64,000 nt of DNA, taken from the NCBI GenBank assembly GCA_026129905.1, contig JAHCHE010000005.1:1-64000 (forward strand), given 5' to 3'. The notes under the pieces were generated by a model. It worked only from the letters and a program-made list of their open reading frames with translations, was not told the DNA's origin and made no database searches. Shown one piece after another: positions 1,727-45,325 of the stretch; within the stretch, counting starts at the first letter, position 1, and each line of letters opens with the position of its first letter. The position numbers and the translations under genes are program-made. The stretch comes from Bryobacteraceae bacterium. Lineage in GTDB: Bacteria; Acidobacteriota; Terriglobia; Bryobacterales; Bryobacteraceae.

Positions 1727-4213
1727 CTATTGCCCAAGCGCCTGTTCTATGATCCGATTGAGTTTTTCTAGGTAGAACCGGACTGCGCCCAGCTCGCCAC
1801 CCACTACGTCAACGGGTTCCACGAAATCCCGGCTCATCCACTGTTGCCCTTGCTGAAGTTTGTATCGCGCTGACGTGAAGCGCTCCCGCGCCCTTTCCTT
1901 GTTCTCGCCGACGTGCGCTTCGATGCCGGCATGGAAGTCCGCCAGGGCCCCAATCCAAGGCCCATATGCGTCAAGCGCCGCGGCAAGAAAATGCAAGTCC
2001 TCCACGGCGTCGGCGCGCGGACCGGCGGCGATCGCTTCCCGCACGAGCGCAGCTCCCTTCGCATTGAGTTCCGCCGCCAGGCTCCAGCGGCGGGACAGGC
2101 GACGGTGCAATTCCTGTGGCGCGATTGTGGCGCCTGCTACGCTGGCGGAAGCCTGACCTTTGGGGTCCCACGTAGCTGAATCTCTCGTTAAGTGAGCGTA
2201 GTGGAGCGGCATCGCGTATAGGCGATTCCACGTGTCGGGAAGATAGCTGAACCGGTTCGTGTATTGGTTCCACCCATCCGGTTTTTTGATTTCAATGTCC
2301 GGGAGCCAAGAGGATTCACGGTAGTATCGCGCCATGACAGGTCCGGCTTTCTCCCCGTAAAGGAGGTCGCACGCGCGCGCGTAAAGCTTGCCGGGACCGA
2401 AGATCTCGCTGAGCGTATTCCAGTGATGGATGTACCGGGCCCATGTTATCCAGGCATCGCTGCCGGTAATCGGGTCGTGGTAGAACCCCGTGGAACGCGC
2501 ATTCCAGCTATATTCGGCATTCACCAATTCCGCTGGAGCTGAGTAGAAGTTGCCACTGGTGTTGTAGACGGTGCGGGCGCCTTTAAACGCGACGTTCAGC
2601 GCCGGCGCGCCCGAAAGCGGATAATCACTGAACAGGCCGTCAGCTCCCGACGCATAGTACACGTAAAGCCCGAACGGCAACTCGGCGCGCTTAAACGCGC
2701 CGGCAAGCAATTCCGTCCACTTCTTGCCGCCATGTTTCTGCGGGAACATTTCCCGGAATCCGAGTTGAACGTTCGCCGCTTTTGGAAGTTGGACGGCGAT
2801 GTTCTGCCAAAGTTCGAGCACGCGCGCCCAGTCTTCCGAGTCGGGCGATTCCTCGGTCCATGCGGCGCGGCCCGCCATCCATGGATCGTCTGCGGAGTAG
2901 ACGGGCGAGATCAAAAGAATCTGGCAGTCCCGGGCGGCGTCGTAGCCGGATACCGAGTGCTTCACGCTGTTTACGGCATTTACCAGCGTTGAGTAGCCGT
3001 GAGCATAAGCGCCCGCGCCGCCATCCTGAGCCACAAAGTCCTCGTTCGGCCAACGCTCGCGGCAGCGCGGACAACGATCGGGCCAGACCTTCTCCGCCAG
3101 GGGCAGATTCGCGATGTCCTCATGATGAATATACAGCGCGCCAGGCTCCACCGCTTCCACAAACCTCCGCAGATCGTCGGCCTTCATTCTGTTCACCTCA
3201 TCGTTGCTCCGACATGTGCCGAGCACGGCGGGATCCATGCCATGCGTGTCGTAGCCGGCAAGGAATCCCATACACCGGTATAGGGCGCCATCAGGATAGC
3301 GGTGGCGGTTTTCGAAGACACGGCCCAGGTGCGATGTTTTACGCTGGCGTTCCTGCTCGCCGGTGCCAAGACCCTGGTACATGAGTCCATAGCCCGCTCC
3401 GTACCCGCCGAACACCAGGTGGATCCCACGGGCGCGGGCATAGCGGTTCAGCCGCCGCATCAGCATCGAATATCCTGAAAAGCGCGCTTCGTCTAGACCC
3501 CAGCCAAAGCCGTCCGCCAGGACCATGTTGATCTTAAACCGCAGCGCCTGGTCCAACTTCTGCTCGCATGTGCGCGCAAATGTCTCCAGGCCTTGGCCGC
3601 GGTCGAGCGCCCAGCGATTAATTTCCGCATTCAACAGCCAATGCGCGGCTTCGCGAAACTCGAAGTCGGGATAATCGCGAATATACGCCGCTCGGATGTC
3701 CGTGGCTTGCGGTCGCAGAGCTATTAGCTGCAAGAGGGTCATAGCCCCGAACAGCACTCCCTGCCCCGTTGCCCCGATAATCCACAGAGATTTGGGGTCG
3801 GGACTTGTAATCACGTATCCTTGCCCGTAATGGCTCGGATTGGTGAGCGTCTCCAGGTCAAGCAGATTCAGTGGAAGCGTAGCGCTCCCGTTGGAGTGGT
3901 CCCACAGGAAAATGGCCGGTGAATCATGCGAATCGGCCGTTGTCGTTATTCGCACCTTTAGCGTTGGGTCCGCCTGCGCAAATTCCCTCTGGAGGAATGT
4001 GACCGCGAGCTCCATCTTTCCGCGTACCGCGGCCGCAGGTCCTGGCACAATTTTCAGGACGCCGCCGCGATCGACGGAAAGTGTGTGCGGCAGGGGCTCG
4101 ATGTACTGTGGGGTGGGCAGGATCGGGAGCGTATGCGCCGCCGTCACAGTGGAAACGAACGCTGCGACGCAAGCGAAACGGAGTAATTGTCGCGTGCCTT
4201 GAGCCGAAACCAT
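1727..4213 (-). CDS. Secreted GH20-like 'HHED' glycoside hydrolase, copy 1
   Basis: 828 residues with a Sec-type leader (LLRFACVAAFVSTVTAAHT). The N-terminal domain opens with LPTPQYIEPLP and ends with VLFGAMTLLQL, the layout of the GH20/GH67-type N-terminal alpha/beta domain. IRDYPDFEFR then starts a probable TIM barrel: FKINMVLADGFGWG (strand 2), ARGIHLVFGGYGAGYG (strand 3), EPGALYIHHED (strand 4; H363-H364-E365-D366), a Cys pair in DRCPRCRERWP, LLISPVY, and NVQLGFREMFPQK. The E-D after strand 4 is where GH20 enzymes carry their catalytic D-E, but this position match is inference. It is the last gene of a seven-gene minus operon, 5 bases after the preceding stop. Four intact paralogues lie at 25219, 32676, 35030 and 37426. 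Substrate unknown. Confidence 0.75.
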   Translation of the reverse strand: MVSAQGTRQLLRFACVAAFVSTVTAAHTLPILPTPQYIEPLPHTLSVDRGGVLKIVPGPAAAVRGKMELAVTFLQREFAQADPTLKVRITTTADSHDSPAIFLWDHSNGSATLPLNLLDLETLTNPSHYGQGYVITSPDPKSLWIIGATGQGVLFGAMTLLQLIALRPQATDIRAAYIRDYPDFEFREAAHWLLNAEINRWALDRGQGLETFARTCEQKLDQALRFKINMVLADGFGWGLDEARFSGYSMLMRRLNRYARARGIHLVFGGYGAGYGLMYQGLGTGEQERQRKTSHLGRVFENRHRYPDGALYRCMGFLAGYDTHGMDPAVLGTCRSNDEVNRMKADDLRRFVEAVEPGALYIHHEDIANLPLAEKVWPDRCPRCRERWPNEDFVAQDGGAGAYAHGYSTLVNAVNSVKHSVSGYDAARDCQILLISPVYSADDPWMAGRAAWTEESPDSEDWARVLELWQNIAVQLPKAANVQLGFREMFPQKHGGKKWTELLAGAFKRAELPFGLYVYYASGADGLFSDYPLSGAPALNVAFKGARTVYNTSGNFYSAPAELVNAEYSWNARSTGFYHDPITGSDAWITWARYIHHWNTLSEIFGPGKLYARACDLLYGEKAGPVMARYYRESSWLPDIEIKKPDGWNQYTNRFSYLPDTWNRLYAMPLHYAHLTRDSATWDPKGQASASVAGATIAPQELHRRLSRRWSLAAELNAKGAALVREAIAAGPRADAVEDLHFLAAALDAYGPWIGALADFHAGIEAHVGENKERARERFTSARYKLQQGQQWMSRDFVEPVDVVGGELGAVRFYLEKLNRIIEQALGQ

Positions 4214-4218
4214 CGAAC

Positions 4219-8699: not shown

Positions 8700-8709
8700 G
8701 CAGTCTCCA

Positions 8710-11415: not shown

Positions 11416-13534
11416 CAGCGCGCGAGTCCGACAATATCTCCACTTTTCCATTCGCTTTCCGGGCTTCGATCACTCGGTTGCTGGCCCGCAATTTGAATGC
11501 GCCGGTTTGAAAAGGGTAGGCCGGGAACGGCTCCGGCTCTCCCGACCAATCCTGAAGAAGCATCTCGTTCACTCCCTGCACGTAGAGCGCGTGCCCTGCC
11601 AGGTAGTAGGGCATCCGGCCGGGGACATGGAACGTATTCTCGATGAACATCGTCCATGGCGGCTGCGAAAAATCGAAGCTCGCTTGGAGGCTGCGGAGCG
11701 CGTCATGCGGCTTCCGCAGCCGGGCCGCGGCAATGGCGTAATATCCGGGGCTCCATGCGCAGGCAGCCAGCTTGACCACCTTTTCGAGATGTTCGAACGT
11801 CTTGAGGAAGTTCTCCTCGCGCCCCTCGAAGAGGGTCGTCATCACGACTCCGATGAGCTGGCTGGGGGCCTTTTGGCCGTGCCCCGTATCGCCTTCGAAC
11901 GAGCCATAGGAACCGTCGCTTCGCCGCGAGTAATCCAAGCTCAGTCTCTCGTTCTGCTCTCGCCAGAGACTCCGCTCCGCTTCGCCGGCGCCCAAGAGTT
12001 CAGCGGCGTCGGCGGCCACTTTCAAGCTCCACTTCGCGGCTACGACGATGTCGAAGATGTTCTTCCGGTTCACCTCGACCCCGGACTCCTCCTGGCCGGT
12101 GGAGGGGACGTAGGCGATTTCCAGCGCATCTCCGCGCGGAGTCAGCATGCTGGAGAAAAACATCGCGATCTCACGCAAAACCGGATAGTAGCGCCGCACG
12201 AGAGAAGGGGGATTGCCGTGCGCCGCCAGATACCGCCGGAGAAACTCGACGATCCACCCGTTGACCGCATGTTCGTGCAGGTAGTCACCCTCGTTCAGGT
12301 GCCCGGGCAGATATGGAAGGAGACCCGGCGTGGAGTGCCACGGATACCGCGCTCCATCGAGATAGTAGACATTTTGCGCGGCGGCCTTGGCGACCGGCAG
12401 AGTCTGGAGGATATACTCGGCTTGCGCGCGCCCCAGTTCCGGGTGATTGGAACTTAAAGCGGCGAACAGGTGGTACATCGAATCCTGCGGGTGAAAGCCG
12501 GCAAAAGCGGGGAACACTCCGTAGCCGCCCTCCGGCGAGAAAGAAGGCAGGCGCCGCGGCAGGGATGAAGCCAGGTAATAGATGCTTCGGTACCACATCT
12601 GCTGAATGCGCCTGTCAGGCAGCACAACGTAGGAACGGCTCCAGAAATCGCGCCACCATCCAATGTGATCGGCTTCCAGTTGGCTGTAACCCCGCCGGGC
12701 GGCCTCCTTGACGGTACGCACCGTGTGCTCTTCACCCTGGCGGAGGGACTGGTGGCCAAAGGCAATGAAGATCGCGTGTTCACCGGACGGAATGTGGAAG
12801 GCGTCTCCGCGGCGCTCCGCTCCAGGCGCGCTGATGGCCACCCAGGCGGGACAGTATACGTTTGAAACCTGTTTAAGGATGACGATGTCGCCGGCGGACT
12901 CATCCGAAGCAGGCCCCTTGCGTTCGTCTCCGGGCATGGAAATGGCCGTTACTCGAAATTCCATGGGCGTGGTGGCCGCCAGGTGGTACACCAGCAGACT
13001 TTCGTAAGGATAAAAGAAGGTTTTCAGCGCGACCTTCTGCCCGCCCAGGCGGTATTCGGTACGGAGGATTGCTTCCTCCAGCGCGAGCGCCTGCTTGTGG
13101 TCGAGAATTTTCTCCGGGAACTCATCGCCGGAGGGACGAAGCAGAAAATCGAACGGCGAGCCGTACGCCAGGTATTTCCGCGGCACTTTGGGGCGGAAGT
13201 ACTTCGGATCGAGGTATCGCGCGGATTGATCCTCCAGTACCCAGTAGTCCGGCATGGTGATCTGCGTCAGCTTCAGCGTTCTGACATCGCGCCGGGCGCC
13301 CGTACCGTACCGCAGTTCATCGTAATGCGTGCCGCCAAACGGATCGAACACGCCGCCAATGTCGCCGTTACCGATGAGCGGAGGTACGTTGCGGTCGATC
13401 TCTCCCCATGCGAACGACTGGACGACGGCGGCGTCGCGCAGGGCCTCGGCCGCTTCCGGCGGCGGCGCCGCCGACCCAGCCAGGCATGCCACGGCAAGGC
13501 CTAGAGCGGAACCGAGGCTGGTGCGCAGGCTCAC
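11399..13534 (-). CDS. Secreted (alpha/alpha)6-barrel protein, GH95-like
   Basis: GTG at 13534 overlaps the upstream TGA (GTGA) and gives 711 residues with leader SLRTSLGSALGLAVACLAGSAA. The N-terminal beta-sandwich (PPLIGNGDIGGVFDPFGGTHYDELRYG) matches the super-sandwich of GH65/GH95 proteins, where fucosidases carry GNGxxGxxxxG. The helical part contains MWYRSIYYLASSLPR, FAGFHPQDSMYHLFAALSSNHPE, and a helix with YLHEHAVNGWIVEFLRRY and YVPSTGQEESGVEVN. This is typical of GH95-like alpha-L-fucosidase/galactosidase relatives. Catalytic residues are not assigned. The longer open frame upstream of 13534 lies inside the neighbouring gene, so I reject it. Confidence 0.62.
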   Translation of the reverse strand: MSLRTSLGSALGLAVACLAGSAAPPPEAAEALRDAAVVQSFAWGEIDRNVPPLIGNGDIGGVFDPFGGTHYDELRYGTGARRDVRTLKLTQITMPDYWVLEDQSARYLDPKYFRPKVPRKYLAYGSPFDFLLRPSGDEFPEKILDHKQALALEEAILRTEYRLGGQKVALKTFFYPYESLLVYHLAATTPMEFRVTAISMPGDERKGPASDESAGDIVILKQVSNVYCPAWVAISAPGAERRGDAFHIPSGEHAIFIAFGHQSLRQGEEHTVRTVKEAARRGYSQLEADHIGWWRDFWSRSYVVLPDRRIQQMWYRSIYYLASSLPRRLPSFSPEGGYGVFPAFAGFHPQDSMYHLFAALSSNHPELGRAQAEYILQTLPVAKAAAQNVYYLDGARYPWHSTPGLLPYLPGHLNEGDYLHEHAVNGWIVEFLRRYLAAHGNPPSLVRRYYPVLREIAMFFSSMLTPRGDALEIAYVPSTGQEESGVEVNRKNIFDIVVAAKWSLKVAADAAELLGAGEAERSLWREQNERLSLDYSRRSDGSYGSFEGDTGHGQKAPSQLIGVVMTTLFEGREENFLKTFEHLEKVVKLAACAWSPGYYAIAAARLRKPHDALRSLQASFDFSQPPWTMFIENTFHVPGRMPYYLAGHALYVQGVNEMLLQDWSGEPEPFPAYPFQTGAFKLRASNRVIEARKANGKVEILSDSRADVPLP

Positions 13535-15306
13535 TTCTTGCACGCGCCGACGGGGTCGCCTTCCTTGTGGCACTCCGACTCCTGCCAGAGTTCCGCAATC
13601 CGGTTGATGCGGCGCCGGATGTCGGTCGTCTCCGCTTTGGCTAGTGCTTTCCGAAGGAGTCCTTCGCACTCGGCGCGGCGGTGGAACCAGTCGCCCTTCG
13701 CCGACTGCAGCACCAGCCAGTGCTCTCGCATCTCGTCCGCCGCGGGACCGTAACTGCGCCGGCAGAAGTCGGCAAGCGCCTCCCGCCACGAGAGGTCCGG
13801 ATTCCACGCCAGCTTCGTATAGACGTACATGTTCTCCTCATGCCAGTCGGCTATTTCCGAAGAGACATGCTTCAAACGCAGTTCGTCCCGGTAGAACTTC
13901 AGGTCCGCTTCGATGGTTTCCATAACTGGAAATTGCCAGCGCGGCCGGTTGTCGCCGAGCGTCCACCAAAGCGAGTAGTAATCCCAGACATAGAAGTTCC
14001 TCGACAGGGCCATCCACTTGCGTATCTCGGCAAGGTACTGGCGGTTTACTTCGTTCTCGGGGTCTTTCAGGGGCCGGAAGTATCCCGCCTCTGCGCCGAT
14101 GCGAAACTGCGCGCGCTGAATGGGGGCAAAGGCTACCAGCACGTTCGGCTCCGGCCTCACGTTTGTCGGAGCGTCGATCAGCTCGTTGTAGGCGAGATGA
14201 TTCACCACCACTTCCGGATGCGTCTTCGACAGAATCTTCGCCACCGCGTTGGTAAACTTCAGCGAAGCGTTGGAAAAACTGAGCATCGGAGGATAACTAT
14301 CCGGCGGATTGCTGACGCTCAGCCGCAGCGTACCCTCCATCTCCAGGCAGCCCGGCGTGGTACAGACGGCGGGCGCGTCGTTCATCCAGACGGTAACGAT
14401 GGAGATTTCCGGATTCTTCTCCAGAAATTCCGCGATGTTCTTCGCCATCACTTCCGCCACTTCCGGATTGGCGAGGTTCAACGACTGCGGCTTGCCGTTC
14501 TGCACAGCGGTGTAATACTCGGGATGTGAGGCGAAGTACTTTTCCGGAGGCAGCCATGCGAAATAGGAATGCCCGCCGTAATGGAGCCCCAACCCGCGTT
14601 TGGTGACTTCCGGCACGATCTGTTCGCGCGAGTTCACCTTCTCCCACAGCGCCGGTCCGGCTTCATTGACGCACGGGTGTACGTAGTTCAGCCGGTTCTT
14701 TGCGGCCCAATCGATACGGTCTTTGGTGACCTGGAGCAAGGCGTACGTGAAGAGCGCATTGGAGCGCAAGCGGTCCCCGATCTGCGAGTCCGCATAGGGA
14801 AACAGGGAAATCGCGCGGTACGCGAAGGCGGGACTCTCTGAATCCTCAACCTTTGCCGGCACGGTGACTTCGTCCGCGCGCGGAACGTACTCGTCCCCCG
14901 GCACAAGCCATCCGCACCCCAGGTACTTCTCGAGGAAGTAATAGACGCTGAACAGCGTGCCCCGCGGCGACGCGCCCGCCAGCACGATCCGACCGTCGTT
15001 GATCCGCACCACAAAGCTGTCGACGCCGCCTTTGTCGAGGCCGGCGATGCTTCCCGCGGCGCTGCCAATGAGAATGCGCTTCAGCCCACCGCCCTGGTTC
15101 TGGATCGGGAGCGTCGAGCCCGAAATCAACCGGATGTATTTCTGGAGCTCCTGCGCCGCGAATCTCTCCGGCGTCTCGGGGGCGGCGCCCGTTACAATCA
15201 CATACTCGGAACGACCGTGGGAGGCCAGAGTCAGCCGCGAACCGCCCTGTTCTGAAAACCCGTTCGCCACCGCAACGGCAAAGATGAGTAGTAGCGTCTT
15301 CTGCAA
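13531..15306 (-). CDS. Secreted DUF4838 protein (divergent member)
   Basis: 591 residues, leader LLLIFAVAVANGFS. The N-terminal domain (FAAQELQKYIRLISG, RILIGSAAG, GTLFSVYYFLEKYLGCGWLVPG) is the alpha/beta domain shared by DUF4838 and GH67-like proteins. The barrel includes NRLNYVHPCVNEAGPALWEK, GLGLHYGGHSYFAWLPPEKYF, ISIVTVWMNDAP followed by VCTTPGC, and VSSEIADWHEENMYVYTKLAW. The same blocks occur at 39903 and 41642, but there the Cys cluster is CxCxxC while here it is C-x4-C. It lies 21 bases downstream of the TonB receptor and is coupled to the next gene by GTGA. Probable glycan-acting hydrolase; no activity is established for DUF4838 from the sequence. Confidence 0.72.
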   Translation of the reverse strand: MQKTLLLIFAVAVANGFSEQGGSRLTLASHGRSEYVIVTGAAPETPERFAAQELQKYIRLISGSTLPIQNQGGGLKRILIGSAAGSIAGLDKGGVDSFVVRINDGRIVLAGASPRGTLFSVYYFLEKYLGCGWLVPGDEYVPRADEVTVPAKVEDSESPAFAYRAISLFPYADSQIGDRLRSNALFTYALLQVTKDRIDWAAKNRLNYVHPCVNEAGPALWEKVNSREQIVPEVTKRGLGLHYGGHSYFAWLPPEKYFASHPEYYTAVQNGKPQSLNLANPEVAEVMAKNIAEFLEKNPEISIVTVWMNDAPAVCTTPGCLEMEGTLRLSVSNPPDSYPPMLSFSNASLKFTNAVAKILSKTHPEVVVNHLAYNELIDAPTNVRPEPNVLVAFAPIQRAQFRIGAEAGYFRPLKDPENEVNRQYLAEIRKWMALSRNFYVWDYYSLWWTLGDNRPRWQFPVMETIEADLKFYRDELRLKHVSSEIADWHEENMYVYTKLAWNPDLSWREALADFCRRSYGPAADEMREHWLVLQSAKGDWFHRRAECEGLLRKALAKAETTDIRRRINRIAELWQESECHKEGDPVGACKK

Positions 15307-28805: not shown

Positions 28806-28809
28806 CGGC

Positions 28810-29259: not shown

Positions 29260-29344
29260 GGCGCAGATGGCGACCGAAGGGAGATGACGGAGCCGAGGCG
29301 GGTTGTAGGTCCGGTCAGGACGGAGCGTAAGTCGCGCAAACGCC

Positions 29345-29373
29345 TTGACGGCATGGTTATATGATAATACAAT
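29345..29373 (+). promoter_or_regulatory. Sigma70-like promoter and operator for the TonB-2 operon
   Basis: TTGACG (29345-29350), exactly 17 bases, TACAAT (29368-29373). The motif TATGATAATACAAT (29360-29373) is the shared element, in the same orientation as at TonB-1 and the 21.8-kb arm. A ribosome site AAGGAG (29380-29385) precedes the ATG at 29394 by 8 bases. Confidence 0.68.
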
Positions 29374-29393
29374 ATGCCCAAGGAGTACATCCC

Positions 29394-32300
29394 ATGTCTT
29401 GCTTGACCAAAGTCCTGGTCTTCCTGGCAACTGCCCTGTTCATGGGTGCGCCGTCCCTCCATTCGCAAACGACGGCTACAATCGTGGGGGTCGTCACGGA
29501 CGAAAGCGGCGGTGTCATTCTAAACGCCGGCGTGAAGGTGATCAACGAGTTGACCGGCTATTCGCGCGACGTCGAGACTGGCGAAGACGGAAGCTACGTC
29601 GCCCCGTTGCTGCCGGTGGGTACATACGCCGTCGAAGGCTCGGCGCAGGGGTTTAAAACGATGCGCCGGACTGGCGTGCGGCTGTCGGTACAGGAAGCGG
29701 TCCGAGTGGATCTGAGACTGCCCGTCGGATCGGTGTCCGATCAAGTAACGGTGAGCGGCGAGGCTCCTCTGGTGGACACGCGCCAATCGTCGGTCGGGGC
29801 GCTGATGGAGTCGGAAAGGATGCTGGAACTCCCGCTAAGCGGGAGGACGCCGGCTTCCTTGTTGCGCCTGATTCCGACGGTCAGCAATCTCAGTCCAGGC
29901 GACCGGCCGACGAGCTACTCGGTGAACGTAAATGTAGCCGGGAACCGAGAGAACAACAACAATTTTCTCCTCGATAACACCCGCTATAACTCCGTGCAAT
30001 ACGGCCAGGGAAATCCGCTGCCGCCGCCTGATTTCCTTTCCGAGTTCAAGGTGACTACCAACGCTTACGACGCGGAAAAGGGGCTGGGCTCCACCAGCAT
30101 CCAGGTGATCACCAAATCGGGCACCAACCAGCTTCATGGAAGCCTGTTCGAGTTTCACCGGGACAACGCGCTGACGGCGCGGAACTTCTTCGCGCCGCGG
30201 ACGCCGTTCCTAGTGCAGAACCAGTTCGGCGGCACCATCGGCGGACCGATTAAGAAGAACAGCACATTCTTTTTCTTCGGCTATCAGGGCACGCGAATCA
30301 GGGAGGCGGTGCTGAGCAACGATGCCTATCCGGCGAGCGAGGCGGAGCGGGGCGGCGATTTCTCCGCGTCCCGCGGCGGCGCCCCGCTGGATCCGGACAA
30401 CAACAACCAGCCGTTCGCCGGCGCCCAGATTCCGCAATCGAGGTGGGATCCGGCGGCGGTGAACTACCTATCGAAGCTGCCGGGGCCGAACCGGGCCGAC
30501 GGGCGCTTTGAGATCCTGCGGCCGCGCAAGGAAGATGGCACGCAGATATCCGTGAAAGTCGACCACAACTTGTTCAGGAACAACCTGGTGTCAGCGCGTT
30601 ACTGGCGGCATTACGGGAAGCTGGTTTCGCCGCTGGGCAACCTGCCGGCGGGGGAGGGCCTGTATACGCTGCATTTCCAGAACCTGGGCGTGACCGACAC
30701 GCACACGTTCGGGCCGACCCTGATCAACGTCTTTTCGATCGGTTGGAACCGGAAGTTCGAAACCAGCACGAACCAGAATATGATCTTCAACACGCCGAAA
30801 GAAGCGGGGGTGAATCTTCCGGACCCGCAGGTGACTCCGTATCCTCCGTTTGTCGGCGTAACGGGCCGCATGTCAGTGTCACCGCGCATCGCGGGGGTGC
30901 CGTTGCGCCTCGACAACACGTGGGACTATGCGGACACCGTGACTTGGATCAAGGGACGCCGCACTTGGAAGTTCGGGGGTGAGTACCACCCGATCCGATT
31001 CGGACCTGGGCTGGCCGCATTCGATAACGGCAACTTTACATTCAATGGCCAATATTCGAAAAACGCCATGGCCGATTTCCTGATCGGCAGACCCAGTTTC
31101 CTGCAATTGCTTCGCGAGCGTGAGAATCACCGAACGTCTTTTCTCGGAATCTTCGCGCATAACGACGTCCGGATCAACAGCCGGTTCACGCTGAACGTGG
31201 GCGTGCGCTACCACTACGAAGAACCGACGTACCAGGCGGACAATCTGTCGGCGAACTTCATCCCGGGCATGCAGTCGCAGCGGATTCCCAACGCGCCGCC
31301 GGGCTTGGTGTATGCCGGCGATCCGGGGATTCCGAAGGGGATCTTCAACGCGGACAAGAACAATTTCAATCCGCGCGTCGGGTTCGCCTGGGACCTGTTC
31401 GGCGACGGACGTACCAGCGTGCGCGCGGGTTTCGGGATTTTCACCGTTCCGTATCCGAACGGCCTGTCGCAGTTCATCAGCCTGAACCTGCCGTTCCTGC
31501 CGGTGTTCAACCTGGATACGGTGCCGTCGTTTTCGGATCCGTTCCGGGGCCGCACGCTGGGCTTCGGCATCGTGCCGAACGATCCGATCGAGATGTACAA
31601 TCCGTCCACCGGGCAGGCGGTGTTTCTGCTGCCCGCCACCGGCTGGTCGATCGATCCGAACTTCCCGAACGCCTACGTGCAGCAATACAGCGTGTCTATC
31701 CAGCGCCAGTTGCCGCAAAACATGGCGCTGGAGGTTAGCTACATCGGCAACGGCGGCCGTAAGCTTTCGCAAGGCTTCCAGTTCAACCCAGCCGCTTACC
31801 GTCCCGGCGCGACGCTGGGAAATACGGAGCAACGCCGGCGCTACTATCCCGGCCAAGTCGGCTCGATGTACCGGAATACGGCGGGTGGCAACAGTTCGTT
31901 TAACGGCCTCGCCACGGTGCTGAGGAAGCGGTTCTCGAATTCGTATCTGCTGGACCTCAACTACACCTGGATGCGCTCAATCGATGATTCGCAGAGCGTC
32001 AACGGGTACAACGCTTACCAGAATCCCGATAATCGCCGGGCGGACCGGGCGGTATCGAACTGGCACCGGTCGCACGTCTTCTCGGCGTCTTGGGTTTGGG
32101 ACCTGCCGCGATTCGCAAATTCCCCGAAGGCCACGCAACTGATTCTGGGCGGCTGGCAACTGGGCGGCTTTGTAACGCTTCAGAGCGGCTTACCCTTCAC
32201 GGTGACGGCGGGCCGCGACAATTCTCTGACTGCCGTCGGCGCGGACCGGCCGGATCTTACCGGCGATCCGAAGCTCTCCACCGACCGTTCGCGGGCGGAG

Positions 32301-32597
32301 TTGATCGCGCGGTATTTCGACACCTCGGTCTTCAAACCGAACGTGCCGGGGACGTACGGCAACGCCGGGCGGAATATCCTGATCGGCCCCGGCTTGGCGA
32401 CCGTGGACCTGGGGCTGTTCAAGAACTTCCACGTGCACGAGTCGCACAAGTTCCAGTTGCGCGGGGAGTTTTTCAACCTGTTCAACCGGGCGAACTTCAG
32501 CAATCCCAACGCTTCGCTGGTGTCGCCCGCCTTCGGGCGGATTCTCGGTGCGGGCACGGCGCGGCAGATTCAACTCGCTTTGAAGTACTCGTTCTAG
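29394..32597 (+). CDS. TonB-dependent outer-membrane receptor 2
   Basis: 1,067 residues from ATG at 29394, preceded by AAGGAG. Leader VLVFLATALFMGAPSLHSQ. Carboxypeptidase-regulatory domain at about 25-105 (TATIVGVVTDESGGVILNAGVK, GSYVAPLLPVGTYAVEG). Plug: LVDTRQSSVGALMESERMLEL and IQVITKSGTNQLHGSLFEFHRD. The barrel ends in QLALKYSF. Same class as the receptor at 15327 but clearly diverged, so it may take a different oligosaccharide. It heads a plus operon with three HHED hydrolases and two DUF4838 proteins. A strong hairpin follows its stop codon and may reduce read-through or protect its message. Confidence 0.9.
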   Translation: MSCLTKVLVFLATALFMGAPSLHSQTTATIVGVVTDESGGVILNAGVKVINELTGYSRDVETGEDGSYVAPLLPVGTYAVEGSAQGFKTMRRTGVRLSVQEAVRVDLRLPVGSVSDQVTVSGEAPLVDTRQSSVGALMESERMLELPLSGRTPASLLRLIPTVSNLSPGDRPTSYSVNVNVAGNRENNNNFLLDNTRYNSVQYGQGNPLPPPDFLSEFKVTTNAYDAEKGLGSTSIQVITKSGTNQLHGSLFEFHRDNALTARNFFAPRTPFLVQNQFGGTIGGPIKKNSTFFFFGYQGTRIREAVLSNDAYPASEAERGGDFSASRGGAPLDPDNNNQPFAGAQIPQSRWDPAAVNYLSKLPGPNRADGRFEILRPRKEDGTQISVKVDHNLFRNNLVSARYWRHYGKLVSPLGNLPAGEGLYTLHFQNLGVTDTHTFGPTLINVFSIGWNRKFETSTNQNMIFNTPKEAGVNLPDPQVTPYPPFVGVTGRMSVSPRIAGVPLRLDNTWDYADTVTWIKGRRTWKFGGEYHPIRFGPGLAAFDNGNFTFNGQYSKNAMADFLIGRPSFLQLLRERENHRTSFLGIFAHNDVRINSRFTLNVGVRYHYEEPTYQADNLSANFIPGMQSQRIPNAPPGLVYAGDPGIPKGIFNADKNNFNPRVGFAWDLFGDGRTSVRAGFGIFTVPYPNGLSQFISLNLPFLPVFNLDTVPSFSDPFRGRTLGFGIVPNDPIEMYNPSTGQAVFLLPATGWSIDPNFPNAYVQQYSVSIQRQLPQNMALEVSYIGNGGRKLSQGFQFNPAAYRPGATLGNTEQRRRYYPGQVGSMYRNTAGGNSSFNGLATVLRKRFSNSYLLDLNYTWMRSIDDSQSVNGYNAYQNPDNRRADRAVSNWHRSHVFSASWVWDLPRFANSPKATQLILGGWQLGGFVTLQSGLPFTVTAGRDNSLTAVGADRPDLTGDPKLSTDRSRAELIARYFDTSVFKPNVPGTYGNAGRNILIGPGLATVDLGLFKNFHVHESHKFQLRGEFFNLFNRANFSNPNASLVSPAFGRILGAGTARQIQLALKYSF

Positions 32598-32604
32598 GGC
32601 CTTC

Positions 32605-32639: not shown

Positions 32640-32675
32640 TTTGCCATGAACGCAATTTCCAACAGGAGGTGACGC

Positions 32676-35033
32676 GTGCGGCGGCTGGGCCTGTTCCTTT
32701 TCGGGCCGATCCTGATTTCGGGGGCGGCCGGCGGCGCGGCGCCGATTCCGACGCCGCAGTACTACGAGGCGCTGGAAGATAGCGTGGTGATCGGCCGCGG
32801 GACGCCGGTCTCGATCACTGCCGGTCCGGCTGGCGCGGCAGCGAGCAGAAAGGCGGCGCTCGCCGCCGAGTTTCTGCGGCGCGAACTGCTGGCCCTGGAC
32901 CCGAAGATGAAGATCGATGCCGCCGCGAGGCGCGACGGCGCTTCGATCGAGCTCTGGGACCTCGGCGCCGACCGCCGCTCCCCAATCGCCCTCAACTTTC
33001 TGGACCGCGAAGCGCTTTCGAATGTGGCGTACCGTGGGCAGGGTTACGTCATCCGGACCGCGGCGCCGGCCCGCGTGACGGTGATCGGCGCATCGGAGCA
33101 GGGCGTTCTCTACGGCGCGATGAGCCTGCTCCAATTACTGCGGAAGACGACCAATGGGGTGGAAATTCCCGGCGTTTATATTCGCGATTATCCCGATTTC
33201 GAGTGGCGGGCCGCATCGGACTGGCTGCTGCGGATAGAACTCAGTCATTGGGCGCTCGACCGGGGACAAGGTCCGGAGGGGTTCGAGCGGCTGTGCGAAC
33301 AGAAGCTGGACCGGGCGCTGCGGTTCAAGATCAACATGGTCCTGATCGACGGGTTCGGCTGGTCGCTCGAGCGGCGCCTCCCGGGCTACGGCGAAATGAT
33401 GCGGCGGCTCAATCGCTACGCGCGAGAGCGCGGCATCAAGCTGATCTATGGCGGCTACGGCGCCGCCTACGACCTGGCCCGCCAGCCCGGCGAGTACCTT
33501 GGCGAGGTCTTTGAAAATCGCGAATCGTATCCGGATGGAGAGAAATACCGCTGCTTTGGCGACCCTCACCAAGGCGAGGGAAGCTGCCGGAGCAACGAGG
33601 AGCTGAACCGGCTGAAGACGGTCGAATTGCGGCGGTTCGTCGAAACGGTGGAACCCGGGGCGCTGTACATCCACCATGAGGACTGCTGCGCGTTCACTGA
33701 GTTCGCCAAAGCCTGGCCGGGACGCTGCCCCCGCTGTCGCCGGCGCTGGCCCAACGACGATTTCAGTGCGGCTGACGGCGGGGCGGGAGCGTTCGCGCAC
33801 GGCTATTCGACCCTGGTGAGCGCGATCAACCAAGTGAAGAAGCCGGACGGATACGACGCCGCGCGAGACACCGAGATCATCCTGGTTTCGCCGGTCTACC
33901 AGCCGAATTCTCCCTCCTCACCGGACTGGTCGAATATGCTCGCGCTCTGGGAGAACATTGCGAAACAACTACCGTCAGCGGACAATTTGCAGATCTGCCT
34001 GCGGGAAATCTTCCCGCAGGCGGGCGGCTCGGGCAGTTTCGTCCAGAAATTTAACTGGGCGATGGAGCAGGCCAGGCGGCCTTTTCGTCCGTTTTTGTTC
34101 TTTATCGGTGGCGCCGACAATTTTCTCAGCGATTACCCGCTCACCGGCGCCCCGGCGATGAACGCGATGTTCCTCGGCGCGAAGTCGATTTATAACGCGA
34201 CCGGCGATTTCTACCAGGAACCGATGGAGGTTCTGAACGCGGAGTACTCCTGGAACAGCAAATCGACGGGATATTACCGCATTCCCGCACGGTACCAGGA
34301 AGCGACGGACCTGCGTTTCCGATTCATTTATGAGGAAAATCGGCCTGCCGAAATTTTCGGCCCCGGCGGGCTGTACGAACGGGCATGCGAGCTGCTGTAC
34401 GGGGCGGCGGCGGGGCCGATCATGGCAGCCTACTACCGCGAGTCGGCGTGGACGCCCGACCGGGGACCAGGTCCGAGCCCGGCGGGGTCCCAGCGCCGCC
34501 ACACGAGCTATCTGCCGATGATGTTCGACCGCATTTACGCCGCCCCGCAGCACTGGCTGCACCTGCGGGCCGACTCCTCGACATGGGCGGAGAAGATTGA
34601 AGACCCGAGGTATCGCCAGCGCATGGCCGCGCTCGGCATCGAGCCGCGCGAGTTGCGCCGCCGTCTCGCGAGGCGGTGGGAGATGGCCGCGGAGCTCAAC
34701 CGGAAAGGGGCCGCGTATATCGTTGGGGCGCTGGCCGCGAGTCCGCTGTCGGCGAGCGTGGAAGACCTCCGCTTCCTGAAAGCGGCATTTCGCGCGTATC
34801 AGCCGCTGCTCGATGCGCTGGCGCAGTTTCACGAGGCGATGGAACTGCGCCTCGCCGGCAAAAACCTCGAAGACGCGCGGAGGAAGCTGGAACAGGCGTT
34901 GGCGGGCGCCCGGCGGGCGCGGCAACTGGCGGCGGAGAGCTTTCCCCAGCCGGTGGATCCGATGGGCGCCGATGTGGGATCGCTTCAGGCTTACGCCGGC
35001 CGCCTGGCCGACGCCATCGAGAAACTGCTGTGA
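32676..35033 (+). CDS. Secreted GH20-like 'HHED' glycoside hydrolase, copy 3
   Basis: 785 residues from GTG at 32676, preceded by AGGAGG (32664-32669). Leader LGLFLFGPILISGAAGGA. Blocks: IPTPQYYEALED, RGQGYVIRTAAP, VIGASEQGVLYGAMSLLQLL, IRDYPDFEWRAASDWLL, KINMVLIDGFGWSL, GIKLIYGGYGAAYD, EPGALYIHHEDCC (H333-H334-E335-D336), GRCPRCRRRWP, ILVSPVYQPNS, NLQICLREIFPQ. It is shorter than copies 1 and 2 between strands 3 and 4 (no long FxxGxxGxD insert). It is the first of three tandem copies; its stop overlaps the next start by GTGA. Confidence 0.75.
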   Translation: MRRLGLFLFGPILISGAAGGAAPIPTPQYYEALEDSVVIGRGTPVSITAGPAGAAASRKAALAAEFLRRELLALDPKMKIDAAARRDGASIELWDLGADRRSPIALNFLDREALSNVAYRGQGYVIRTAAPARVTVIGASEQGVLYGAMSLLQLLRKTTNGVEIPGVYIRDYPDFEWRAASDWLLRIELSHWALDRGQGPEGFERLCEQKLDRALRFKINMVLIDGFGWSLERRLPGYGEMMRRLNRYARERGIKLIYGGYGAAYDLARQPGEYLGEVFENRESYPDGEKYRCFGDPHQGEGSCRSNEELNRLKTVELRRFVETVEPGALYIHHEDCCAFTEFAKAWPGRCPRCRRRWPNDDFSAADGGAGAFAHGYSTLVSAINQVKKPDGYDAARDTEIILVSPVYQPNSPSSPDWSNMLALWENIAKQLPSADNLQICLREIFPQAGGSGSFVQKFNWAMEQARRPFRPFLFFIGGADNFLSDYPLTGAPAMNAMFLGAKSIYNATGDFYQEPMEVLNAEYSWNSKSTGYYRIPARYQEATDLRFRFIYEENRPAEIFGPGGLYERACELLYGAAAGPIMAAYYRESAWTPDRGPGPSPAGSQRRHTSYLPMMFDRIYAAPQHWLHLRADSSTWAEKIEDPRYRQRMAALGIEPRELRRRLARRWEMAAELNRKGAAYIVGALAASPLSASVEDLRFLKAAFRAYQPLLDALAQFHEAMELRLAGKNLEDARRKLEQALAGARRARQLAAESFPQPVDPMGADVGSLQAYAGRLADAIEKLL

Positions 35034-37429
35034 ATCTCAAGAAGAATATCCTAATAATCCGGCTGGGGGCGGCGGCCCTTGGGAGCGTCCTGTTGTCCGC
35101 GGCGCCGCGGGTCGTTCCTACGCCCCAGCAGTTCGAAGCGCGCGAAGGCCGCTTGACGCTGCCCGCGGACGACGGGGTTGAAATCGTCATCGGCGAGGCG
35201 GCTTCGCCGCAGGTCCGGGTGGCCTCCGAGTTGCTGGCAAGCGAACTCGCTCTCGCCGACCGGCGTTTCGCGGCGCGGGCGAGAATCGTCTCCAAAGCCG
35301 GCAACGCCCCCGGCATCGTGCTGTGGGATTACGGCGCCTCCGGCGAGCCGCCGTGGCCGCTGGCCGGAGAAGACCGCGAACTGCTCGATCCGGCGAAGCA
35401 TTTCGGCCAGAGCTACCTGCTGGAAACGCGGGCGCCGCGGCAGGTGTGGATCGCCGGCAGCACGAGCCAGGGCGTGCTCCATGGGGCGGCGACGCTCGCG
35501 CAGTTGTTCGAGCGCGTCCCGGAGGGGCTGGCAGTCCCCGGCTGCCGCATCCGCGACTATCCCGACTTCCGCTATCGCGCCGCCGCCGACTGGCTCCTGC
35601 GCGCGGAATTGAACCGGTGGGCGTACGACTGGGGCGACGGGCGGCGCAACTACATCGCGCGCATCAAGCGGAAGCTCGATTTCTGCGCGCGTTTCAAGAT
35701 CAACATGGCCCTGTTCGACGGTTTCGGCTGGACGGCGGAGAAGAGGCCGGGCCATGCGGCAATGATGCGCGAACTCGGCGCTTACGCCCGCGCGCGCGGC
35801 ATCAAGCTGATGTACACGGGCTTCGGAGCGAATTTCGATCCGCCGAAGGTGGAGCCGGAATTCAACATCGGCAAGGCGCACTTGAACCGGGAGAGCTACC
35901 CGCACGGCCGCGTCTACTCCTGTTTCGGCGAGACGCGCACAGCCGAGAGCCCCACCTATGGCACCTGCCGGTCCAACGAGGGCCTGAACGCGGAAATCGC
36001 CCGGGAATTCGAGACCTTCGTCCGGGCGGTGGAACCCGGAGCGCTCTACATCCATCACGAGGACACCGGCCACTTCGACTCGACGCAGATACGCTGGGCG
36101 GCGCGCTGCGAGCGTTGCCAACGAAAGTGGCCGAACCCGGATTTCGCCGCGGCGGACGGCGGGGCCGGCGCGATGGCCCATGGTTACGCCAACATCTTCC
36201 GAGCCATCCGGGGGGTGAAGAATCCCGATACTGGCTACGACGCGGCGCGCGATTGCACGGTCGTCTTCATCTCCCCGCCCTATGGGATCGACTCGGGACG
36301 CTCGGGGCTGGGCAACGCGGCCGCCGACGAGCAGGTGAACTGGAATAAGACGCTCGAATTCTGGTCTAATGTGCTCTCGCTCATGCCGGCCGGCGAGAAC
36401 CTCGAGATCGGTTTTCGGGAAATCTTTCCGAATTCCAAGACCGGCGAAGGCTGGATTGAGGCGTACCGGCGCCGCATGGCTGAGCGCAAGCTGAACCCAA
36501 ACGTGTTCCTGTTCTTCCTGGGCGGCGCGGACCAGTACTCGGCGGGATCCTTTGGTTACCCTTTTACCGGAAATTCGGCGATGAACGCGCTGTATCTGGG
36601 CGCCGAGGCGATCTACAACTTTAACGGCGGACTGCACCAGGAGCCGCAGCAACTGCTGAACGCCGAATACGGGTGGAACGCGCGGGCGCCGGGGAGCTAC
36701 GCGCCGAAGACGTTCCAGGAAGGGCTCTCGGCATGGAACGCCCTGATGGATAACGAGCGGCTTCCGCCGGACATCTTTGGAGAGGGCCGGCTGTTCGACC
36801 TCGCCTGCCGCCGCGTTTACGGGGAAAAGGCCGGCGAGGCGATGAGCCGGTTCTTCCGCTATTCGGAACCCGCCGCGGCCGGGCCGCTGCCCCGCTTCTA
36901 CCCCCGCCGCATCTACCCTTTGGTTGTGTTGTGGCGGTATCTGCAGGGCGACAGCCTTTATTGGAACCCCAAGCCCGACCCCAGCGAGGAAGCAGCGCTC
37001 AAAGGCCTCGGCGCCGATCGCGAGGAATTCCACCGGCGGCTGGCGGCAGTGTGGCGGCAGACGGCAGGAGTGAACCGCAAAGCGGCTGTATTCGCCGCCG
37101 AAGCGGAGCGCTCCCTCGGCCTGCGCCCGGACGCGGACGGCGATGTGCGCCACCTGGCGCGCTGCCTCGACGTGGGCGAGCGTTTCGCCAATCTCCTGGC
37201 GGCCTACCACGAATTGCTGGCCGGCGCGGCGGGTGGTCCGGGCTTCGAGGCCAAACTGAAGTCCACGCTCGAGGAGCGCGCCGCGGTGGCCGCCTGGGTC
37301 GAGAGGGAATTCCAGTTCGACCATGTCGATCCGAAAGGCGGCGATTTGTCGAGCTGGATCGAATCGTTGGATCGCCTCCGCAGCTACCTTCAGGCGATGC
37401 GGAGCGCCAGCCATGGGAGTGTGAAATGA
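35030..37429 (+). CDS. Secreted GH20-like 'HHED' glycoside hydrolase, copy 4 (most divergent)
   Basis: GTG at 35030 overlapping the previous TGA gives 799 residues with a Sec-like N-terminus (LKKNILIIRLGAAALGSVLLSAA). The longer frame upstream lies inside copy 3 and is rejected. Blocks: VVPTPQQFEAREG, FGQSYLLETRAP, IAGSTSQGVLHGAATLAQLF, IRDYPDFRYRAAADWLL, KINMALFDGFGWTAE, GIKLMYTGFGANFD, EPGALYIHHEDTG (H342-H343-E344-D345), ARCERCQRKWP, VFISPPYGIDSG, EIGFREIFPNS, FLFFLGGADQYSAG. Several usually invariant blocks differ (GGYGA is GFGAN; SPVY is SPPY), suggesting a different substrate. Coupled by ATGA to copy 5. Confidence 0.75.
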   Translation: MNLKKNILIIRLGAAALGSVLLSAAPRVVPTPQQFEAREGRLTLPADDGVEIVIGEAASPQVRVASELLASELALADRRFAARARIVSKAGNAPGIVLWDYGASGEPPWPLAGEDRELLDPAKHFGQSYLLETRAPRQVWIAGSTSQGVLHGAATLAQLFERVPEGLAVPGCRIRDYPDFRYRAAADWLLRAELNRWAYDWGDGRRNYIARIKRKLDFCARFKINMALFDGFGWTAEKRPGHAAMMRELGAYARARGIKLMYTGFGANFDPPKVEPEFNIGKAHLNRESYPHGRVYSCFGETRTAESPTYGTCRSNEGLNAEIAREFETFVRAVEPGALYIHHEDTGHFDSTQIRWAARCERCQRKWPNPDFAAADGGAGAMAHGYANIFRAIRGVKNPDTGYDAARDCTVVFISPPYGIDSGRSGLGNAAADEQVNWNKTLEFWSNVLSLMPAGENLEIGFREIFPNSKTGEGWIEAYRRRMAERKLNPNVFLFFLGGADQYSAGSFGYPFTGNSAMNALYLGAEAIYNFNGGLHQEPQQLLNAEYGWNARAPGSYAPKTFQEGLSAWNALMDNERLPPDIFGEGRLFDLACRRVYGEKAGEAMSRFFRYSEPAAAGPLPRFYPRRIYPLVVLWRYLQGDSLYWNPKPDPSEEAALKGLGADREEFHRRLAAVWRQTAGVNRKAAVFAAEAERSLGLRPDADGDVRHLARCLDVGERFANLLAAYHELLAGAAGGPGFEAKLKSTLEERAAVAAWVEREFQFDHVDPKGGDLSSWIESLDRLRSYLQAMRSASHGSVK

Positions 37430-39843
37430 ACCATCTTTTAGCAGGGCGTTGGTTGCTGGCCGCGAGTCTGCTGGTCCCGCTTGCCGTGGGCGCGGCGGGC
37501 GCCGTTCGCGTCACCCCGACGCCGCAGTACCTGGAGCCCGGCGAGACCGCGCTGCGCATAGCGCCGGGAGGGATGGCGCGCATCGTCATCGGGCCGGCCG
37601 CCACCGAGTCAAACGACAAGCTCCTGCTGGCAGCCGAGTTCCTGCGGCGCCGAATCACCGTTCTCGATCCTTCGGTGAAAGTCGTTGCCGGCGGCGGGAA
37701 CGGACCGTCGGTTCATCTGTGGGATTATTCGGCCGACGCGAGGGTTCCTGCCGCGCTCAACCTGCTGGACCGGCAGACGCTGACCGGAGCGGACCGTTAC
37801 GGCCAGAGTTACGTCATCAAGCCCGAGGCGAACGCGCTGTGGGTGATCGGGGGCTCCGACCAGGGCGCGCTGCTCGGCGCCATGACCGCGCTTCAGTTGC
37901 TGGCGAGGGCGCCCTCGGGCATCGAGATCCAAACGGCCTACGTCCGCGATTATCCGCATTTTCAGTTCCGCGCCGCTTCCGACTGGCTGCTTAATGTCGA
38001 GATCAACCGGTGGGCGCTCGACCGCGGGCAGGGGGCGGAGGCGTTCGCGCGGGAGTGCGAGCGCAAACTCGACCGGGCACTGCGGTTCAAAATCAACATG
38101 GTCTTGATGGACGGCTTCGGCTGGGGTCTCGAGCAGCGGTTTGAAGGCTATGCCGAACTGATGCGCCGGCTGAACCGCTACGCGCGCGCCCGCGGGATAT
38201 ACCTTTACTACGGCGGGTATGGCGCTAGCTACGGACTGGCCTACCAGGGCGGTCCGCTTTACGAAGACGCTCCTTACCTCGGCAAAATCTTCGAAAATCG
38301 CGAGAGTTATCCAGACGGACCGAAGTATCAGTGCATGGGGTTTACCTACGGCGACCGCGGCGTGGACCCAAGCGTTCTGGGTAGTTGCCGCGCCAACGAA
38401 GACCTGAACCGGCAGAAGGCGGAAGAGTTGCGCCAGTTTGTCGCCGCCGTCGAGCCTGGAGCGCTGTACATCCACCACGAAGATTTCGGTGATTTCCAGG
38501 GTACCGAGCAGATCTGGCAGAAGCGCTGCGCCCGCTGCCGCGCGCGCTGGCCGAGCGACGCGCTCGTGGCGAAGGACGGCGGGGCCGGCGGGTTCGCCAA
38601 CGGCTACGCGGCGCTGGTAAAGGCCGTCAACGGCGTCAGAAATCCGGCCTCGGGGTACGACGCGTCGCGCGACTGCGAGATCATCCTGGTGTCGCCGGTC
38701 TACGTGCCGGATTCGCCCGCCTCTGAGGATTGGGCGGAGACGCTCGAGCTATGGCAGAATATCGGCCTCGAATTGCCGGCCTCGCGAAACTTGCAGGTCG
38801 GCTTTCGTGAAGTATTCCCGCAAAAGCACGGCAACGCGAAGTTCACGAAGGAATTCGAGGCGGTGATGCGGCGTGCGGGACTGAATGTGGGAAGTTTTCT
38901 GTTTTACGCGGGCGGCGCCGATAATTTCCAGAGCGATTACCCGCTGACGGGAACTCCCTCTCTGAACGCGATGTTTCTCGGCGCCCGGGGCGTCTATAAC
39001 TCGACCGGCGACTTTTACCGCGAGCCGATGGAGGTCGTCGCCGCCGAGTATTCCTGGAACGCCCGCGCGCCCGGCTGGAGGGACCCGATGCGGTTTGACG
39101 AGGCCACGGCGCTCGACCGCCGCTACACGTATGAACCGGACGAGCCGAAGGAAGTGTTTGGCCCGGACGGGGTGTACGCCCGCGCGTGCCAATTGCTCTA
39201 TGGGTCCAAAGCGGGACCGATCATGGCTTCGTATTACCGGGAATCGGCGTACCTGCCGGACGTCGAACTGACCGGCCGGACGAAAGAATCGGGCGCCGGC
39301 TATCTCCCCGGCACGTGGAACCGGCTGAATGTCCTGCCATCGCACTGGCGGCACCTCGCGCTCGACTCGAAGACCTGGGGCGCCGAGATGAACAACGAGG
39401 CGTATAAGCGTGGCTTTTCCCGCTTAAAGATCGACCGACCGGAACTGCACCGGCGGCTGGCGCGGCGATGGCAGTTGGGCGCCGAACTGAATGCGAAGGG
39501 CGCGAAATATGTCGAGCGGGCGCTGGCGGCCGGCGCGGACTCCGATGCGGTGGAAGATCTCAAGTTTCTGAAGAGCCTCTTTGACGTTTATCAGCCGCTT
39601 ACTGAAGGGCTGGCCGCGTACCACGCCGCGCTGCGCGCCCGCTTTTCCGGCAGCACGCCATCGGGGTCGGTCAACGCAAGCCTGGACGCCGCCGCGGCGA
39701 AAGCTCAACAAGCGCGGGAGGCGGCCCGGCGAGCGTTCCCGCGGCCGCTGGACCCGGCGGGCGGCGAGATCGGCACGTTGCGCCGCGAACTGGACCGTCT
39801 TGTGGAATCGATCGGCACCGCCCGCAAAGCGGCGGGTTTGTAG
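37426..39843 (+). CDS. Secreted GH20-like 'HHED' glycoside hydrolase, copy 5
   Basis: ATG at 37426 overlapping the previous TGA gives 805 residues. Leader LLAASLLVPLAVGAAGA. Blocks: VTPTPQYLEPGE, YGQSYVIKPEAN, VIGGSDQGALLGAMTALQLL, VRDYPHFQFRAASDWLLN, KINMVLMDGFGWGLE, GIYLYYGGYGASYG, EPGALYIHHEDFG (H350-H351-E352-D353), KRCARCRARWPSD, ILVSPVYVPDS, LQVGFREVFPQK, FYAGGADNFQSDYPLTG, YSWNARAPGW. It resembles copy 2 most. Last of the tandem trio, 59 bases before the DUF4838 pair. Confidence 0.75.
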   Translation: MNHLLAGRWLLAASLLVPLAVGAAGAVRVTPTPQYLEPGETALRIAPGGMARIVIGPAATESNDKLLLAAEFLRRRITVLDPSVKVVAGGGNGPSVHLWDYSADARVPAALNLLDRQTLTGADRYGQSYVIKPEANALWVIGGSDQGALLGAMTALQLLARAPSGIEIQTAYVRDYPHFQFRAASDWLLNVEINRWALDRGQGAEAFARECERKLDRALRFKINMVLMDGFGWGLEQRFEGYAELMRRLNRYARARGIYLYYGGYGASYGLAYQGGPLYEDAPYLGKIFENRESYPDGPKYQCMGFTYGDRGVDPSVLGSCRANEDLNRQKAEELRQFVAAVEPGALYIHHEDFGDFQGTEQIWQKRCARCRARWPSDALVAKDGGAGGFANGYAALVKAVNGVRNPASGYDASRDCEIILVSPVYVPDSPASEDWAETLELWQNIGLELPASRNLQVGFREVFPQKHGNAKFTKEFEAVMRRAGLNVGSFLFYAGGADNFQSDYPLTGTPSLNAMFLGARGVYNSTGDFYREPMEVVAAEYSWNARAPGWRDPMRFDEATALDRRYTYEPDEPKEVFGPDGVYARACQLLYGSKAGPIMASYYRESAYLPDVELTGRTKESGAGYLPGTWNRLNVLPSHWRHLALDSKTWGAEMNNEAYKRGFSRLKIDRPELHRRLARRWQLGAELNAKGAKYVERALAAGADSDAVEDLKFLKSLFDVYQPLTEGLAAYHAALRARFSGSTPSGSVNASLDAAAAKAQQAREAARRAFPRPLDPAGGEIGTLRRELDRLVESIGTARKAAGL

Positions 39844-45317: not shown

Positions 45318-45325
45318 CGCCTCCG

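Follow-up and report, generated by a model that had tools for sequence, protein, structure and literature searches.

Five homologous genes from a Bryobacteraceae bacterium may encode secreted glycoside hydrolases of an undescribed family whose predicted fold resembles that of GH84

A stretch of 64,000 nucleotides on contig JAHCHE010000005.1 of a Bryobacteraceae bacterium, analysed at its full length and called the window below, carries five homologous genes (copies 1 to 5), which an earlier note on this DNA had described as a family of secreted, GH20-like hydrolases with an HHED signature. We read their products as secreted glycoside hydrolases (GH) of a single, undescribed family that belongs to the group of GH84, GH20 and GH138 and feeds an oxidative catabolism of amino sugars, and we put the probability of this reading at roughly 0.5. 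As judged by Pfam and NCBIfam models the family is unnamed, and it is probably an undescribed glycoside hydrolase family within a known superfamily. If the reading is right, the group gains a new glycosidase family with a changed acid pair, together with a set of linked catabolic genes whose role as a pathway can be put to the test.

The five genes (Table 1) are genuine. Each is a complete open frame, and the products are homologous, aligning with one another over nearly their full length at 36-57% pairwise identity (BLASTP; weakest E 1.1e-145), compared with 0 of 100 matches at 1e-3 for shuffled copies; on this point the earlier note was right. It had also listed a series of shared sequence blocks, which holds in part: the block of the IHHED region (VEPGALYIHHED), RDYP, DGFGW and RC.RC..[RK]WP occur in 5/5 copies, but PTPQY (3/5), GGYGA (4/5) and LLQL (3/5) are not universal in exact form. 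N-terminal hydrophobic stretches suggest that the proteins are secreted. Copies 3 and 4 overlap by 4 bases, stop with start, as do copies 4 and 5. The whole genome (8.57 Mb, 71 contigs) yields eight matches at E 0.001, namely the five full-length copies and three partial matches to the N-terminal domain.

Domain models named only the N-terminal part of these proteins. The sole Pfam family above its cut-off in the window copies (hmmscan) was PF02838 (Glyco_hydro_20b), which passed in four of the five and fell just short in copy 5 (25 vs. 26.1 bits); it was found in 34 of 35 family members at E 0.1 or better. The catalytic barrel matched no Pfam or NCBIfam family at its cut-off. At E 0.1, none of the 35 members matched the catalytic domains of GH20 (PF00728) or GH84 (PF07555), or DUF4838 (PF16126). 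GH67 models left the barrel unmatched in the same members, with weak Glyco_hydro_67N matches in 2/35. Against the five window copies, NF049878, which we take to be the NCBIfam model of GH138, reached 11.2 bits at best (cut-off 1300), in the N-terminal part and not in the barrel. Membership in GH20, GH84, GH138 or DUF4838 by sequence model was rejected on these results. Two weak barrel signals below cut-off, GH97 (5/35 members, best E 0.018) and AP_endonuc_2 (1/35, E 0.037), were regarded as chance matches.

Among the best 60 of 77 matches to solved structures, a 35-row profile aligned mainly with the N-terminal domain of GH84 and GH20 proteins, and a few GH20 stretches extended to about position 239, in the first barrel strands. 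At full length, the profile matched GH138 at 96% probability and DUF4838 at 94-95%, with 98-99% for the two in global mode; we did not accept these values as proof of homology, since the barrel alone falls to 7-18%. A likeness to GH84 seen by eye in strands 4, 5 and 8 (LYIHHEDFG~FNLSLDDIG, LVSPVY~FCPTWY and AEYSWN~ADYTWNP) was kept as a lead only, a profile of 14 GH84 sequences having given 4.6%. Because the barrel-only and GH84 comparisons are low, the barrel is, by these profiles, a sequence family of its own. Searches limited to a library of open-licence papers listed two metagenome papers (yak faeces, cow rumen) and a mucin review, none of which was recognised as describing the family.

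The predicted fold points to the GH84/GH20 group. An AlphaFold2 model of copy 5, made with 35 of the 40 rows of the alignment described below, has a predicted local distance difference test score (pLDDT) of 90.6 and a predicted template modelling score (pTM) of 0.92, and consists of a GH20b-like alpha/beta domain, a (beta/alpha)8 barrel and a helical C-terminal part. Foldseek ranked GH84 first for the whole model (E 3e-16), with GH138 (BP0997) at 6e-15 and GH20 at 4e-14. GH84 was also first in VIA (Z 18.6, 10.3 Å over 539 residues, 9-14% identity in the GH84 rows). The barrel folded alone (pLDDT 89.4) again had GH84 as its first VIA match (Z 18.1, 3.7 Å over 269 residues, in an alignment that runs from residue 1 to residue 399), rows within 1 Z being counted as tied. 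In Foldseek, its top match was the GH84 mutant D120N of T. terrenum (3e-7), followed by Cwp19, GH20, GH67 and GH138 entries among others; the GH67 entry 1gql matched at E 1.6e-5. Entries named GH115 or DUF4838/GH163 (GH163 presumably belongs to DUF4838) were absent from the best 50 rows of each Foldseek and VIA list, whether for the whole model or for the barrel. With PF02838 in nearly all members and GH84 first by fold, the GH20/GH84-like architecture proposed in the earlier note is borne out, with the reservation that sharing a fold is no proof of function. Strand 3 of the model is separated from the helix that follows by about 60 residues (265-324), a segment presumably longer than its GH84 counterpart.

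The HHED motif was said to replace the GGDE-type motif of these enzymes. In copy 5, whose numbering is used throughout, barrel strand 4 spans residues 346-349 in the whole model or 346-350 in the barrel model (DSSP), and H-E-D follows straight after it. The end of strand 4 is the place of the Asp-Asp pair of GH84 and of the Asp-Glu pair of GH20, and the replacement thus agrees with the model. The note had also asked whether HHED might be buried away from the pocket; at the level of topology, it lies at the C-terminal end of the strand.

Conservation among homologues does not support HHED as the defining catalytic signature. We counted 40 rows (the five window copies and 35 others, some partial), which include near-copies (L070/L072, L017/L018, pieces of L012/L013 and of L030/L010, and others), so that the counts overstate the number of independent cases. 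Loci with weak matches to the N-terminal part only (L006-L008, L073-L076, L078 and L079) and pieces below 300 bits (L029/L056 and L022:13094-14176) were left out. The pattern used to search for loci included VEPGALYI, and residues just before HHED were thus partly kept by selection; HHED itself lay outside the pattern. H350 and D353 are present in 39/39 rows, E352 in 34/39 and H351 in 28/39. E352 is replaced by V in L023 and by L in L025, L070, L071 and L072, and the motif reads HSED, HFED, HNED, HCVD, HNLD or HGLD outside the window, with H and D alone constant. The motif as a whole is therefore not the signature it had been taken for. R461-E462, E192 and R182 are kept in 38/38 rows, and E462 ends barrel strand 6; the invariant polar residues at strand ends span rows from Acidobacteriota, Planctomycetota and Lentisphaerota. 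Three cysteines are likewise kept (C303 and C321 in 39/39 rows each, C371 in 40/40), and may form a disulphide or a metal site near strand 4.

E462 is as good a candidate catalytic residue as the acids of HHED. With E352 replaced by L or V in 5/39 homologues, a mutation test confined to the E and D of HHED, as suggested earlier, may miss the catalytic pair. We favour D353 with E462 over E352 with D353 as the putative pair, because H350, D353 and E462 are invariant and E352 is not, and because of a spacing found in a GH138-like protein (L083). Its glutamates in CLGEALQ and NGES, motifs also present in L084-L086, are 67 residues apart, which is also the distance between E294 and E361, presumably the GH138 catalytic pair on strands 4 and 6. 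L007, a weak N-terminal match from the window's own genome, carries HVGGDE and is presumed to be a GH20 protein.

We propose that the secreted enzymes would cut glycans bound or taken up by the adjoining TonB-type receptors. The active site most likely lies at the C-terminal end of the modelled barrel, where D353, next to H350, could act as the general acid and E462 as the second carboxylate; the strand-4/strand-6 glutamate pair of GH138 presumably offers a model for this pairing. In lineages that possess E352, and in those alone, this residue would take the place of the acetamido-polarising residue of GH84 and GH20. Hydrolysis would most likely release an amino sugar or its acid, which would pass to a cytoplasmic route, in which a Gfo/Idh dehydrogenase would oxidise it, a lactonase of the phosphotriesterase (PTE) kind would open it, an amidohydrolase would deacetylate it and a DgaE-like ammonia lyase would deaminate it, leaving a keto-deoxy acid. 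A tentative and rather doubtful extension of the family assignment is that, in a GH84-like frame, a D353/E462 pair replaces substrate assistance, and that the amino sugars released enter a non-phosphorylated oxidative route, itself undescribed, which Acidobacteriota and a few other phyla would share.

The linkage of the DgaE-like and PTE-family genes to the family is real. Among 13 distinct genomes that carry the family (four further entries repeating counted genomes were left out), 8 carry a DgaE-like match that is full-length and at least 43% identical, and in 7/8 it lies on the same contig and within 5 kb of a family gene. A PTE match is found in 10/13 and shares a contig with a family gene in 9/10. 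The exception in both counts is genome G593, with the two genes together on another contig. A parallel is offered by Pseudoalteromonas prydzensis, whose ong cluster serves the oxidation of chitin. That cluster is reported to comprise a pair of TonB receptors, a GH20 enzyme of the periplasm, a deacetylase of the amidohydrolase kind and a pyridoxal-phosphate (PLP) deaminase for N-acetylglucosaminate (PMC9537276), with OngB being D-aminoacylase-like and OngC of fold-type III (PMC9537276, PMC12017989). The window resembles the cluster in its TonB receptors, GH20-type hydrolase, amidohydrolase deacetylase and PLP enzyme, and differs in the EF_0837 type of its deacetylase, the DgaE/SelA type of its PLP enzyme and the added PTE and Gfo/Idh genes; other protein families would thus do the same steps. 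This parallel is an analogy and not evidence for the substrate.

Several results weigh against our reading. In sequence, hhalign with the barrel alone gave only 12% probability for GH138, 7-18% for DUF4838 and 0.8-5% for GH84 (sets of 3 and 14 GH84 sequences), and the full-length profile only 0.3-2.3% for the GH84 sets; because these barrel links are not significant, membership in the superfamily rests on the fold and on the N-terminal domain. In the fold comparison, the rmsd of about 8-10 Å to GH84 over the whole model means that the arrangement of the domains is no close match, the barrel of Cwp19 from C. difficile ties with GH84 (Z 17.4, 4.5 Å over 301 residues), and barrels of non-hydrolases, XenA and D-allulose 3-epimerase, also match (Foldseek E 2e-5 to 4e-5). 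On the side of the pathway, genomes G594, G595, G596, G602 and G965 are without a full-length DgaE-like match of at least 43% identity, and G595, G602 and G965 without a PTE match. Moreover, the DgaE-type family is a large one, with 12 matches in the genome of the window alone, and the neighbours score below the curated NCBIfam cut-offs, the amidohydrolase narrowly so (357 vs. 371 bits), which makes the pathway one drawn by analogy. Finally, we saw no known activity for any member of the family.

Three other explanations were weighed. The proteins could be strict retaining beta-N-acetylhexosaminidases of the GH84/GH20 type with substrate-assisted catalysis, in which E352 polarises the 2-acetamido group, D353 is the acid/base and HHED is the counterpart of the DD or DE pair. 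GH84 as first fold match with GH20 among the matches, E352-D353 at the end of strand 4, the presence of E352 in most rows and in all five window copies, and neighbour genes of an amino-sugar type are consistent with such an enzyme. It would, however, leave the invariant E462 and H350 unexplained, neither PF07555 nor PF00728 is matched, and L023, one of the five loci with V or L for E352, still adjoins PTE, DgaE-like and amidohydrolase genes. We consider this mechanism rather unlikely. GH84 enzymes (CpNagJ, BtGH84, human OGA) share with the family the GH20b-like domain, the barrel, the helical C-terminal part and acids at the end of strand 4, but have an Asp-Asp pair where the family has E-D in 34/39 rows and L-D or V-D in 5; the family in turn has the invariant R-E on strand 6 and lacks PF07555 in its 35 members. 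GH20 beta-N-acetylhexosaminidases are alike in the N-terminal PF02838, the barrel and a strand-4 acid motif, whereas the family is without PF00728 and H.GGDE and has a long, helical C-terminal part.

Another candidate is an exo-acting uronidase like those of GH138 or GH67, acting as an alpha-galacturonidase or an alpha-glucuronidase, in which an arginine such as R461 or R182 would hold the carboxylate. The invariance of R461-E462 and R182 speaks for it, as do the Foldseek matches to BP0997 and 1gql and the weak Glyco_hydro_67N matches. Yet GH84 ranks above GH138 and GH67 in the Foldseek lists, neither of the two is among the best 50 VIA entries, NF049878 and the GH67 models miss the barrel, and amino sugars are what the linked genes, DgaE-like and amidohydrolase, suggest, so we hold a uronidase to be improbable. 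The GH138 alpha-galacturonidase BP0997 does resemble the family in whole-model fold and full-length profile, and may share with it a carboxylate pair on strands 4 and 6; it differs in the NF049878 result and in the 12% barrel profile. DUF4838 proteins, neighbours at the same locus, are similar in their GH20b/67N-like N-terminal domain and in a W-C-C stretch after strand 4 that aligns in the full-length profile, but that profile link lies mainly in the N-terminal domain, and PF16126 is found in 0/35 members. It is also conceivable that the superfamily fold was kept without hydrolysis, in a dead carbohydrate-binding protein or in another (beta/alpha)8 enzyme, epimerase-like or lyase-like for example. 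The lack of a characterised member and the matches to XenA and D-allulose 3-epimerase would allow for this; polar strand-end residues kept without exception across three phyla, and a build that is that of glycosidases, make it very unlikely.

With respect to the history of the copies, the tandem expansion proposed earlier applies only in part. In a tree of 33 rows, each of 600 amino acids (aa) or longer, copies 1, 2, 3 and 5 fall in one clade (100/99) with L009, L011 and L028, inside which the grouping of copy 3 and L028 (99/98) is the only one resolved. Copy 4 belongs to a separate clade (100/100) with L014, L015, L016 and L037, all of which have blocks of the SPPY/GFGANFD type. The altered blocks of copy 4 (GFGAN, SPPY) are thus real, but recent divergence was rejected, since copy 4 groups with an older subfamily. 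L015 has three adjoining copies from three clades. Because the copies come from different clades, at least two of them old subfamilies in the window, such arrays are mixtures of old paralogues, which in this tree speaks for complementary specificities rather than fresh tandem expansion. At least two old subfamilies and five copies in one locus, together with DUF4838 proteins and deacetylases, suggest a complex amino-sugar glycan as food.

The family is rare. A search for related loci examined 35 candidate stretches and identified 18 relatives, which make up 17 distinct loci in Acidobacteriota, Planctomycetota, Lentisphaerota and one Aminicenantes bin. The family was found in 3/200 genomes of the same taxonomic family and 6/396 of the phylum, the window's own genome included in both. 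In the phylum of G602 (288 genomes), 4 of 6 reported genomes have real matches (E <1e-105) and 2 have N-terminal matches only; in the phylum of G601 (294 genomes), matches are real in 2 of 4 reported genomes. These wide searches scored 2-5 candidates per genome, and the counts are lower bounds. Some genomes have up to 7 matches, fragments included.

Table 1. Features of the window, with positions in nucleotides and residue numbers of the encoded proteins.
Feature	Position	Strand	Remark
Copy 1 (P0001, 828 aa)	1727..4213	-	closes a minus-strand run that the receptor at 15327..18542 opens
Copy 1, HHED codons	3116-3127	-	
Copy 2 (P0002, 793 aa)	25219..27600	+	directly 3' of the Gfo/Idh and amidohydrolase genes
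Copy 2, HHED codons	26236-26247	+	
Copy 3 (P0003, 785 aa)	32676..35033	+	GTG start
Copy 3, HHED codons	33672-33683	+	
Copy 4 (P0004, 799 aa)	35030..37429	+	GTG start; older SPPY/GFGANFD subfamily
Copy 4, HHED codons	36053-36064	+	
Copy 5 (P0005, 805 aa)	37426..39843	+	protein used for modelling
Copy 5, H350-H351-E352-D353	38473..38484	+	end of barrel strand 4
Copy 5, R461-E462	38806..38811	+	end of barrel strand 6
TonB-type outer-membrane receptor	15327..18542	-	CarboxypepD_reg + OMP_b-brl_4
TonB-type outer-membrane receptor	29361..32597	+	just before copies 3-5
DUF4838 protein	13531..15306	-	PF16126
DUF4838 protein	39903..41630	+	directly 3' of copy 5
Second DUF4838 protein	41129..43369	+	open frame, real start further in
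SelA/DgaE-family PLP ammonia-lyase-like gene	19466..20710	-	linked to the family across genomes
Phosphotriesterase (PTE)-family gene	20700..21674	-	linked to the family across genomes; putative lactonase
Gfo/Idh/MocA oxidoreductase	23005..24018	+	
Amidohydrolase, PRK09237/EF_0837 type	23996..25186	+	deacetylase-like; homologues in L022 and L023
Two GntR/FCD-type regulators	18764-19483 and 27670-28440	+	44% identical, flanking the mid-locus

All five copies had been placed in operons with TonB receptors. This is correct for copy 1 and for copies 3-5, but copy 2 lies 1.8 kb before the second receptor, with a GntR-type gene between them. Other neighbours include an esterase and a GH95/65-like protein just below cut-offs. 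A trio of genes for a PIG-L deacetylase, a 536-aa protein with a weak L-fucose-isomerase match and a polysaccharide deacetylase (44580-47694, minus strand) recurs directly upstream of a family gene in L025:6056-9444 (Lentisphaerota, G602; E 2e-127 to 2e-239). The locus has four DUF4838-type proteins, one of which (6300-8897, minus strand) matches only weakly. A 913-aa protein (8710-11451, minus strand), in the run that ends with copy 1, gave no Pfam match at E 1. The plus strand at 50409-53400 encodes, side by side, two proteins of about 500 aa that are 71% identical and gave no Pfam family at E 1e-3; the first has a weak match to a Tat signal, and a close homologue stands beside the family in L022:10023-11519 (E 2e-252). 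Finally, a sulfatase with a C-terminal SGSH_C domain (N-sulphoglucosamine sulphohydrolase) at 55721-57211 on the plus strand hints at sulphated amino sugars.

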